Shown: positions 42,631 to 47,104 of the stretch, in pieces
Layout of the letters: each line of letters opens with the position of its first letter
Position numbering within the stretch: position 1 is the stretch's first letter
NCBI RefSeq assembly: GCF_011046245.1
Contig: NZ_CP049241.1
Location: forward strand, 2,248,001 to 2,312,000
Reading direction: 5' to 3'
Length of the DNA: 64,000 nt
Source of the DNA: Allorhizobium pseudoryzae
GTDB lineage: Bacteria > Pseudomonadota > Alphaproteobacteria > Rhizobiales > Rhizobiaceae
Translations under genes and position numbers: made by a program
Notes under the pieces: model-generated
The model's database searches: none
What the model saw: only the letters and a program-made list of their open reading frames with translations
What the model was told of the DNA's origin: nothing

Positions 42631-44457
42631 TCAGGCGGCCCGGCGGCGCGGGCGCGGATCGATCTGCACTTCGTCTTCACGGCTGACGAACTGGTTGACC
42701 AGCGCCACCATCTCGCCCACCTCCTCGGTCAGCGAATGGCTGGCGGCATTCATTTCCTCGACCATCGCCGCATTCTGCTGGGTAATCTGGTCCATCTGGT
42801 TGACGGAGGTGTTGATCGCCTGCAGCACGTCGCTCTGTTCGCTGGTGCCGAGTGCGATCGTCTCGATGTCGCCGGCAATGGACGCGATGTCGTTCTCGAT
42901 TTCCTTCAGAGCCTCGCCGGTGCGCGAGACGAGCGCCACGCCGCCGGCCACTTCGTTGGTGGAATGGGTGATGAGCGCGTGGATTTCCTGCGCGGCATTG
43001 GCGGATCGTTGGGCGAGTGCACGTACTTCCTGGGCGACAACGGCAAACCCTTTGCCGGCTTCGCCTGCGCGTGCCGCCTCGACGCCGGCGTTCAGCGCCA
43101 GCAGGTTGGTCTGGAAGGCGATCTCGTCGATGAGGCCGGTGATCGAGCCGATGCGCTGGGAGGCATCCTCGATGCGGCTCATGGCATCGATCGCCTGACG
43201 GACGATCTCGGCCGAGCGTCCGACATTTTCGCGCGCGTGGTTGCTCTTCGTCATCGTGTTCTTGGTCAGGCCGCTGGAGGCGGCGATATTCGAGGTGATC
43301 TCGTCCAGCGCGGCAGCGGTCTCTTCCAGGGCCGCGGCCTGCTTTTCGGTGCGGTGGGCGAGGTTGTCGGCGGAGCCATCCAGGCTTTCGGCATTGGCAC
43401 GGATTTCATCCGCCTTGCCCAGCACCCGGCGCATCGTCTGCTGGAAGACGGCGAGCGACCGGTTGAAATTGTTGCGCAGCACCTCGAATTCCTCGTCGAA
43501 GGGCTCGTCCAGCGTGACATGGATGTTGAAGCGCGACAGGCGATCGAGGCCGGCGCCCAGATCGTCGATGACCTTCTTGAGGGTCGCGGCCCGTTGCGTT
43601 TCGATGGCCAGCTGGCGGTTGCGCTCTTCGCTCGTCTGCTGTTCGTGGCGGTCGGCATCCTGCTCCAGCCGTTCCTTCTCCAGGGCCGCCTCGCGGAAAT
43701 GGGCCACGGCCTGTGCCATGTGGCCGACTTCGTCCTTGCGGTCGGCATGCGGCACCGGGCTTTCGAGGTCTCCGGTCGCCAGGGCGGTCATGTAGCGTTG
43801 CATGTCCTGCAATGGCGAGATGGCGCGTCGGCGAAACAATGCGATGCCGCCGAGAAGGACGATGACGGCCACGCCGCTCGCCGTATAGGCCAGGGAGCGA
43901 TAGAAGGTTCCGGTGGTGGCGGCTCGCGCCTCGACGGCGGTCATGTCCTTGTGGGCCATGTCGACCAGGTGCACGACGGCGGCGCGCTGGGTGCGGAAGC
44001 GCTTTCTCAGCTCCGTCAGGTCGGTTTCCTTGCCATTGACGGCGGCAATCTTGAACTGCGGGACAACAACCTCGAACAGATGTTGCCAGAAGGCTTCGGA
44101 CGCCTGTTTGTACTCTCCGAAGACGAAGGATGCGGTGGCGGCCGGCAGGGGTTTGGTGGCCCAGGCCGCCATGCGTGCCGAGTAATCGGCGTGCAGCTTC
44201 TTCAGCATTTCGGTATTGGCGTCCGCTTCTTCCGGATAGGCCGCCGTCTCGGTGGCCGTCAGATAGGCCTCGACCACGAACATCGGCGGCGGCAGGATGT
44301 CGGCCACGAGGTCCTTCGCATCGATGATGAGGCTGTATTCCGGTCCGTCGATCTGCAACTGACGCAGAGAATACAGAAGCGTTCCCACCGCGACAGACAG
44401 TCCCATGAAGAGAACCATTCCGAACAGAGCAAGAAAGCGCGATATGGTCATCTGCAT
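42631..44457 (-). CDS. Methyl-accepting chemotaxis protein
   Basis: A 608-residue transmembrane chemoreceptor. It has a first membrane helix near residues 8-30, a periplasmic region of about 155 residues (with KDLVADILPPPMFVVEAYL near the membrane), a second helix near 187-208, a HAMP domain and a cytoplasmic hairpin with the tip EIAFQTNLLALNAGVEAARA. Unlike the receptor at 7.9 kb it has no C-terminal EEF-type tether and ends in RPRRRAA. GGAG lies upstream of the ATG. The ligand is unknown. Confidence 0.93.
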   Translation of the reverse strand: MQMTISRFLALFGMVLFMGLSVAVGTLLYSLRQLQIDGPEYSLIIDAKDLVADILPPPMFVVEAYLTATETAAYPEEADANTEMLKKLHADYSARMAAWATKPLPAATASFVFGEYKQASEAFWQHLFEVVVPQFKIAAVNGKETDLTELRKRFRTQRAAVVHLVDMAHKDMTAVEARAATTGTFYRSLAYTASGVAVIVLLGGIALFRRRAISPLQDMQRYMTALATGDLESPVPHADRKDEVGHMAQAVAHFREAALEKERLEQDADRHEQQTSEERNRQLAIETQRAATLKKVIDDLGAGLDRLSRFNIHVTLDEPFDEEFEVLRNNFNRSLAVFQQTMRRVLGKADEIRANAESLDGSADNLAHRTEKQAAALEETAAALDEITSNIAASSGLTKNTMTKSNHARENVGRSAEIVRQAIDAMSRIEDASQRIGSITGLIDEIAFQTNLLALNAGVEAARAGEAGKGFAVVAQEVRALAQRSANAAQEIHALITHSTNEVAGGVALVSRTGEALKEIENDIASIAGDIETIALGTSEQSDVLQAINTSVNQMDQITQQNAAMVEEMNAASHSLTEEVGEMVALVNQFVSREDEVQIDPRPRRRAA

Positions 44458-44708: not shown

Positions 44709-44737
44709 TTGTCAGACACAAAGCCGCGCGCTATGAA
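44709..44737 (+). promoter_or_regulatory. trpL promoter
   Basis: TTGTCA (44709-44714) and TATGAA (44732-44737) are spaced by 17 bp. A start 8 bases past the -10 falls on the A of the leader-peptide ATG at 44745. An in-frame ATG at 44733 is part of the -10 and so would not be transcribed. Confidence 0.7.
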
Positions 44738-44744
44738 CGTCGCC

Positions 44745-44789
44745 ATGACAACGTCGAGCAACATGATGATCTGGTGGTGGGCACGCTAA
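44745..44789 (+). CDS. trpL: trp operon leader peptide (peTrpL)
   Basis: The 14-codon reading frame encodes [14 protein letters not shown] with three consecutive Trp codons. It has the same length and the same IWWWAR end as the S. meliloti peptide. Ribosome stalling at the Trp codons controls the downstream attenuator. In S. meliloti the peptide also acts in trans. No ribosome-binding site precedes it, in line with a leaderless mRNA. Confidence 0.92.
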
Positions 44790-44824
44790 ACGCGGCCTTG
44801 ACCAGTCATGTCCAAAGACGAGAC

Positions 44825-44857
44825 AAAGCCGCCCGAAACTCCCGAGGCGGCTTTTTT
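44825..44857 (+). terminator. trp attenuator terminator
   Basis: AAAGCCGCC (44825-44833) pairs with GGCGGCTTT (44846-44854), followed by a continuous T-run to 44857. It lies between the leader peptide stop and the trpE(G) start, as expected for transcription attenuation. Confidence 0.9.
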
Positions 44858-44914
44858 GATGAAAAGACCTCCTCCAGAACCGGGCTCGATGGGAAAGAGG
44901 AAGAGGTTAAGAGC

Positions 44915-47104
44915 ATGGTCACCATCATCGAAGACGACGGCTCGGAGGTCTACGAGACTCGTGGCGGCATTTCCGTCAGCCGCAAGCGCCGGCCGACCCC
45001 TTATGCCAATGCGGTGTCCAGTTACGTGGACAAACTGGATGAACGCCGCGGCGCGGTCTTCTCGTCGAACTACGAATATCCGGGCCGCTATACCCGCTGG
45101 GATACGGCGATCGTCGATCCGCCGCTCGGCATCTCCTCCTTCGGCCGCACTGTCTGGATCGAGGCCTATAACGGCCGCGGCGAAGTGCTGCTCGATTTCA
45201 TTGCGGATCGCCTGTCGTCCGAACCGGACCTGACGCTCGGGGCACGCTCTCAGCGCCGTCTCGACCTCTCCGTCAACACGCCTTCCCGCGCCTTTACCGA
45301 GGAAGAGCGCTCGAAGATGCCGACGGTGTTTACCGTGCTGCGCGCCATCGTCGATCTCTTCCATTCGGATGCTGACAGTGCCATCGGCCTCTTCGGTGCC
45401 TTCGGTTACGATCTCGCCTTCCAGTTCGATTCCATCGATCTTTCGCTCAACCGCCCCGATGACCAGCGCGATATGGTGCTGTTCCTGCCGGACGAGATCC
45501 TCGTCGTCGACCACCACGCCGCCAAGGCCTGGATCGACCGCTACGATTTTGCCCGCGACGGCAAGACGACGGTCGGCAAGTCGGAAGAGATTGCGCCGGA
45601 ACCCTTCCGCACGACGGACACGATCCCGCCGAAGGGCGATCATCGCCCCGGCGAATATGCCGAACTGGTGGTGAAGGCGAAGGAAAGCTTCCGCCGCGGC
45701 GATCTGTTCGAGGTCGTGCCCGGCCAGAAGTTCATGGAACGCTGCGATTCAAAACCCTCGCAGATCTCCAACCGCCTGAAGGCGATCAACCCGTCGCCCT
45801 ATTCCTTCTTCATCAATCTCGGCAACCAGGAATATCTCGTCGGCGCTTCGCCGGAAATGTTCGTGCGCGTTTCCGGTCGCCGCATCGAGACCTGCCCGAT
45901 TTCCGGCACGATCCGCCGCGGCGAAGATGCGATCTCCGACTCCGAACAGATCCTGAAGCTCTTGAACTCCAAGAAGGACGAGAGCGAGCTCACCATGTGC
46001 TCGGACGTCGACCGCAACGACAAGTCCAGAGTCTGCGAGCCGGGGTCGGTCAAGGTCATCGGCCGCCGGCAGATCGAGATGTATTCGCGGCTCATCCACA
46101 CGGTGGACCATATCGAGGGACGCCTGCGTCCGGACATGGACGCCTTCGACGGCTTCCTCTCCCACGCCTGGGCCGTTACCGTCACCGGGGCGCCGAAGCT
46201 TTGGGCGATGCGCTTCATCGAGAAACACGAAAAGAGCCCGCGGGCCTGGTATGGTGGTGCGATCGGCATGGTCGGCTTCAACGGCGACATGAACACGGGT
46301 CTCACGCTGCGCACCATCCGCATCAAGGACGGCATTGCCGAGGTGCGCGCCGGCGCGACGCTGCTCAACGACAGCGACCCGCACGAGGAAGAGGCCGAAA
46401 CCGAACTGAAGGCCTCCGCCATGATTGCCGCCATCCGCGATGCCCGCACGGGCAATACCGCCAAGGTCAGCCGTGACGTGCAGACGGTGGGGCAGGGGGT
46501 GAAAATCCTGCTGGTCGATCACGAGGACAGCTTTGTCCATACGCTCGCCAACTATTTCCGCCAGACGGGAGCGGACGTCTCCACCGTGCGCACGCCGGTG
46601 CCGGAGGAGATCTACGACCGGATCAAGCCGGATCTGGTGGTGCTCTCGCCCGGACCCGGCAATCCGAAGGATTTCGATTGTAAGGCAACGATCAAGGCGG
46701 CGCGCGCCAAAGGTCTGCCGATCTTCGGCGTTTGTCTCGGCCTGCAGGCGCTGGCGGAAGCCTATGGCGGCGAGCTTCGGCATCTTGCGGTTCCGATGCA
46801 CGGCAAGCCGTCGCGCATCCGCGTGCTGGAGCCGGGGATCGTCTTTGCCGGCCTTGGCCGCGAGGTGACGGTCGGCCGTTATCACTCGATCTTCGCCGAT
46901 CCGAAGACGCTGCATCCGGATTTCATCATCACTGCGGAAAGCGAGGACGGCACGATCATGGGGATCGAACACGCCAAGGAACCGATTGCGGCGGTGCAGT
47001 TCCACCCCGAATCGATCATGACGCTCGGCGGCGATGCCGGCATGCGGATGATCGAGAACGTGGTGGCGAACCTGTCGCGCCGGGCGAAGGAACAGGCGGC
47101 GTAA
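44915..47104 (+). CDS. trpE(G): Fused anthranilate synthase TrpE(G)
   Basis: A 729-residue fusion that makes anthranilate from chorismate and glutamine, the first step of tryptophan synthesis. Residues 1 to about 505 are the TrpE part, with [32 protein letters not shown] ([11 protein letters not shown]) and [17 protein letters not shown] short linker leads to the TrpG glutaminase, with catalytic Cys607 ([10 protein letters not shown]) and His697/Glu699 (HPES). The fused form and its length are typical of Rhizobiaceae. The ATG at 44915 has a GAGG upstream. Control is by attenuation at the leader region. Confidence 0.97.

Follow-up and report, generated by a model that had tools for sequence, protein, structure and literature searches.

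Two questions are raised by the DNA upstream of trpE(G) in Allorhizobium pseudoryzae: whether it encodes a trp attenuator of the kind known from S. meliloti, and whether the likeness of its leader peptide to that of S. meliloti points to a function in trans. The window analyzed here is a stretch of 64,000 nucleotides (G000:C1:2248001-2312000) from a genome of 5.4 Mb. In it, the leader region lies between a divergent chemoreceptor gene on the minus strand (42631-44457, with MCPsignal and HAMP domains) and the regulated gene, trpE(G), which encodes a fused anthranilate synthase (44915-47104; Pfam Chorismate_bind, GATase and Anth_synt_I_N). This gene and all leader features described below are on the plus strand. 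Judged from sequence comparison and predicted folds, the region is almost certainly a Rhizobium-type trp attenuator equivalent to S. meliloti rnTrpL/RcsR1, with the transcription start site, leaderless translation and the response to tryptophan being inferred. The original prediction of a trp leader with an attenuator resembling rnTrpL was thus borne out, by the RNA family match, the anatomy of the locus and the folds of its RNA.

A covariance-model search over the window matched the Rfam attenuator sRNA family RcsR1 (RF02552) at 44761-44857 with 88.1 bits (cut-off 60, E 7.5e-17). The match covers the full length of the model (positions 1-96 of 96) and is placed between the promoter and trpE(G), whose ATG is at 44915. 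In the whole genome it is the one match at E ≤ 0.001, with no second copy. With stricter filters, the model matched 75 of 150 genomes, this one included, with 62 over the cut-off. RcsR1 and rnTrpL are described as originating from one S. meliloti position (PMC7143759), and the window element is a further member of this known rhizobial trp attenuator sRNA family. Weak second matches (about 30 bits, below the cut-off) occur elsewhere in the relatives G037, G025, G034, G005, G014, G075 and G049; these may be chance matches or other attenuators.

Where does the transcript begin? From 437 related trpE(G) loci we kept the best 80, which make 81 loci with the window added; because of this selection the sample leans towards near relatives, and it holds no record titled Sinorhizobium or Ensifer. 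The nearest trpE(G) genes among these best 80 are those of Rhizobium sp. CSW-27 and SL86 (98% identity) and R. straminoryzae (96%); the SL86 leader differs in one residue, has the same promoter geometry and is otherwise unremarkable. To count as a leader, an ORF had to have its ATG 7-11 codons ahead of the first Trp codon, a rule that identified leaders in 79 relatives and the window, and the leader of locus L033 was placed by hand. In an additional reading of peptides, loci stored on the reverse strand yielded none, and they do not enter the counts. A leader ORF is present upstream of trpE(G) in 81/81 loci. In the window, this ORF, trpL (44745-44789), has 14 codons, three of which encode Trp. 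Read directly from the letters, a -35-like TTGTCA (44709-44714) is followed after 17 bp by a -10-like TATGAA (44732-44737), which ends 7 nt before the leader ATG at 44745. The promoter letters are as originally given, and their spacing is nearly fixed: in all 81 loci, a TA starts 12-14 nt upstream of the leader ATG (searched 10-16 nt) and a TTG lies 35-37 nt upstream of it (searched 27-42 nt). The absence of a ribosome-binding site was likewise confirmed, as none of the 81 loci has a Shine-Dalgarno-like 4-mer (AGGA, GGAG, GAGG or AAGG) at positions -15 to -1.

Generic scans for sigma-70 promoters and terminators reported 0 sites at the trp leader, presumably because TATGAA lacks the final T and the hairpin has a bulge and a long loop. 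Rhizobial promoters resemble CTTGAC-17-CTATAT. Since the generic promoter scan gave no site, the promoter call rests on the comparison of loci. The S. meliloti rnTrpL is reported to begin at the ATG of trpL (PMC7298713), and translation of S. meliloti trpL to have been seen by Ribo-seq (PMC10117765). A transcription start on the leader ATG is likely a design shared across the loci, with the putative +1 of the window at 44745, and leaderless translation of trpL is well supported by the same comparison. All 81 loci examined would thus carry a leader of the leaderless type.

A different start has to be weighed. The -10-like element contains an in-frame ATG at 44733, from which an 18-residue peptide could be translated on a longer transcript with the attenuator still at work. 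An ATG inside the -10 (at -12) is present in only 8 of the 81 loci, and what is conserved is the spacing from the -10 to 44745. We therefore rejected 44733 as a start, which we consider extremely improbable, in agreement with the original view of this ATG as a false lead. The same prediction had taken a start well upstream of 44733 as the observation that would contradict it; this position is the A of the upstream ATG, which is inconsistent with the predicted +1 at 44745.

Since the reading frame of trpE(G) extends upstream without a stop as far as a GTG at 44774 inside trpL (776 aa), we also considered a trpL-trpE(G) fusion or frameshift product. This frame (44774-44914) is open in 33/81 loci, and the frame relation is spread over the three phases as 33, 25 and 23 loci; the fusion was therefore rejected as chance. 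Directly after the TAA of trpL, 44790-44801 reads ACG CGG CCT TGA in frame. This in-frame TGA is the stop that closes a long form of the leader in 23/81 loci, so that the short form of the window and the long form differ by the first stop codon.

From the putative start to the end of the T run, the predicted RNA (44745-44857) is 113 nt, close to the transcript of about 110 bases that had been expected. Its fold has an energy of -45.8 kcal/mol; shuffles average -30 (sd 3.43; z -4.61), and none of 200 was as good. The whole-RNA fold consists of stem 1:2 and a terminator. The core of stem 1:2 is at 44771-44805 in the predicted folds and the alignment, and its 5' arm is formed by the Trp-Trp-Trp-Ala-Arg codons. 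The intrinsic terminator 3:4 (44825-44857; -16.7 kcal/mol alone) has the stem and T run originally described, with arms at 44825-44835 and 44843-44854 and six T at 44852-44857.

An alternative pairing, the antiterminator 2:3 (44792-44832), joins GCGGC (44792-44796) to GCCGC (44828-44832). To mimic a ribosome positioned at the Trp codons, we folded nt 37-99, 40-99 and 43-99. These folds, which exclude nt 1-36, 1-39 or 1-42 as well as strand 4, form the antiterminator (-14.2 kcal/mol). When only nt 1-30 are held off, stem 1:2 persists (-20.8) and the antiterminator is absent. In every fold of the finished RNA starting from nt 25 to 46, the terminator is preferred. Because the terminator wins whenever strand 4 is included, the choice between the two structures must be kinetic, made during transcription. 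The leader thus combines consecutive Trp codons, mutually exclusive antiterminator and terminator, and a U run, the features of a ribosome-mediated attenuator.

The structures were compared in an alignment of 79 of the 81 loci, comprising 70 distinct sequences; L062 and L069 were left out, as the terminator pattern failed on them. The five antiterminator pairs are invariant in 70/70 distinct sequences, and the GC pairs of the terminator vary little or not at all. Pairing is kept in 92.8% of terminator cells, 86.7% of stem 1:2 cells and 96.4% of cells in the stem 1:2 core helix. The closing pair of this core changes from C-G to U-A, a double change, in 12/70 sequences. Compensated changes were found in 26 cells of stem 1:2, compared with 14.4 in shuffles, whereas 3 of its pairs have double changes, no more than in shuffles (3.9). 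No double change was found in the terminator among the 70 sequences. Covariation is therefore slight, and the invariant pairs argue neither way.

We propose that transcription would start at the A of the trpL ATG or at a neighboring base, so that the ribosome would start on a leaderless RNA. When tryptophan is plentiful, the ribosome would clear all three Trp codons, allowing the GCCGCC arm to pair into the terminator and the 113-nt RNA to be released. When tryptophan is scarce, the ribosome would stall on the Trp codons, which form part of the 5' arm of stem 1:2, leaving arm 2 (GCGGC) to capture arm 3 (GCCGC); this would block the terminator and allow transcription of trpE(G). In the E. coli trp attenuator, a ribosome stalled on Trp codons likewise selects antiterminator or terminator. 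The choice by stalling is common to both systems; the leaderless start, as we infer it for the window leader, is a difference between them. With S. meliloti rnTrpL/RcsR1 the element shares the position before trpE(G), a trpL of 14 codons with three for Trp, a promoter just before the ATG, stem 1:2, the terminator and an Rfam match over the cut-off.

By analogy with S. meliloti, trpDC mRNA may be a further target of the released RNA. Whether it base-pairs with this mRNA in trans, the role described for rnTrpL, is a separate matter from anything the peptide does, and we consider the chances evenly balanced. The genome has trpD, trpC and moaC in a row, identified by profile matches to TIGR01245, IGPS and MoaC, respectively. 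Regulation of trpDC by the RNA is reported for S. meliloti, and Agrobacterium and Bradyrhizobium are described as sharing it (PMC7143759). The RNA core, GCGGCCUUGACCAGUCAUGUCC, is nearly invariant, in favor of pairing in trans, but its conservation is equally required in cis. The best predicted duplex with trpDC has an energy of -67.0 kcal/mol, a value reached by only 3 of the 346 stretches in a background of 20 window genes; gene by gene, however, the best duplex is stronger than that of trpDC for 3 of the 20, and these 20 genes were picked by hand for a crude method that ignores accessibility. As evidence for pairing in trans, the modeled duplex energy is ambiguous. The start of a moeA-like gene, named by eye only, follows moaC.

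Is the peptide itself under selection? The comparison of leader peptides suggested in the original prediction yielded, for the 81 loci, 50 distinct peptides and a leader ORF at each locus. Relative to S. meliloti peTrpL, the window peptide differs at residues 2-5 and 7-8 and has N6, I9 and WWWAR in common. The original prediction had read the retained IWWWAR end as a pointer to the residues that matter in trans. In that form, the reading was not supported. The Trp codons are needed in cis and the Ala and Arg codons are in the conserved stem. I9 is not a conserved trait, since residue 9 is Ile in only 9/81 loci (Asn in 46, Val in 15, Ala in 7 and Gly in 4). Residue 13 is Ala in 71/81 loci, encoded by GCA (40), GCT (30) or GCG (1), and residue 14 is Arg in 74/81, with CGC as the only Arg codon used. 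The fold pairs the whole Arg codon and bases one and two of the Ala codon, leaving the third base of the Ala codon unpaired. At residue 6, the Asn codon is AAC in 66/81 loci and AAT in none, and two of its bases are paired.

The same tendency is seen across the ORF. Excluding the ATG, Trp and stop codons, columns that pair in stem 1:2, counting its core and its inner extension as folded in the window, have an entropy of 0.56 bits, compared with 1.08 bits for the others (12 and 18 columns; Mann-Whitney p 0.006, with columns and species not independent). One exception is the paired third base of codon 7, which varies like the unpaired columns (1.45 bits). The variation of paired ORF columns is roughly half that of the others, so that the AR end common to the peptides can be put down to RNA pairing. 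The conserved end of the peptide is thus explainable by RNA folding in cis, which is also compatible with a role in trans. Likeness of leader peptides is not in itself a sign of selection on the peptide, as the codons double as stem, and the idea of a trans function based on the peptide end is weakened by the codon comparison.

The peptide could nevertheless act in trans as peTrpL does in S. meliloti, on the mRNA of a pump repressor and in drug-dependent RNA complexes; we regard this as possible but rather doubtful. The window peptide retains the third Trp, W12. The peptides of S. meliloti, A. tumefaciens and B. japonicum are reported to lower the mRNA of their own smeR homologue despite little likeness to one another (PMC7298713). 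Arguing against such a role are the conservation of the ORF, which outside the Trp codons tracks RNA pairing, the replacement of W12, required in S. meliloti, by Pro in 11/81 loci, and the gene content of the genome. A profile search of the genome gave 11 RND pump matches at 10 loci (two adjacent matches counted as one), 4 of them over the cut-off, and 17 TetR_N matches. The smeABR order, with the TetR gene downstream of the pump, was found at 0/10 RND loci (TetR_N within 5 kb downstream). TetR_C_2 had no match in the genome, with a positive E. coli control, although S. meliloti SmeR itself may not match this model. For the RNA, sinI mRNA is a reported target in S. meliloti, one on which membership of the RcsR1 family does not depend. 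The LuxI model (sinI-type, PF00765) had no match in the genome; it matched in 29 of 40 genomes of the genus, this one being among the 40. The S. meliloti picture is therefore not transferable as it stands, as neither sinI nor smeABR was found in this genome.

TetR_N matches are found within 3 kb upstream of a pump in three cases, two in the same direction (C1:1490731 and C1:1821904) and one divergent (C4:168549). The first is part of a run of genes in one direction (G000:C1:1490686-1497341) for a TetR protein (TetR_N, TetR_C_27), an HlyD_D23 membrane-fusion protein, an AcrB-type pump and an OEP outer-membrane efflux protein. The TetR beside the best AcrB match belongs to the TetR_C_27 type. 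The repressor gene is upstream of the pump in this run, unlike in smeABR, where it is downstream. Having a TetR gene just upstream of an AcrB-type pump, in the same direction, favors a role in trans, and the A. tumefaciens and B. japonicum cases indicate that arrangements other than smeABR may do (PMC7298713).

The differing N-terminus of the window peptide had been proposed as a natural variant for asking which residues matter in trans. The N-terminus does differ, but the idea is in print in outline: the A. tumefaciens and B. japonicum peptides are reported to have differing N-termini and to have failed to work in S. meliloti (PMC7298713).

The loci without a third Trp offer another variant. 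In S. meliloti, peTrpL W12A is reported to be non-functional, and W10A still raised resistance (PMC7298713), so that leaders with WWP in place of WWW are natural tests of the W12 requirement. In 11/81 loci, each with an ARxTRP tail, CCG (Pro) replaces the third Trp codon. These are Neorhizobium-type leaders (L038-L040, L042-L046, L053, L056 and L065). On a quick trpE(G) tree, WWP needs 4 changes, at least 2 of which are forced by well-supported branches. No such Neorhizobium variant was found in the titles, abstract starts and selected passages of the open-licence literature. One way to reconcile these observations is that the role of the peptide in trans is a lineage-specific addition to an element otherwise shaped by RNA folding in cis; the partner would be specific to the host, such as the TetR and pump genes at G000:C1:1490686-1497341, and Neorhizobium-type species would have lost W12 in at least two changes on the tree. 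We consider this unlikely. With 50 distinct natural peptides and 11 loci without the third Trp, the claimed requirement for W12 in trans is testable. A further natural loss of Trp is seen in Rhizobium lemnae (L033:2278-2388), where the leader (MKTSLIIAIWRWARN) has WRW, the second Trp codon being replaced by CGG (Arg).
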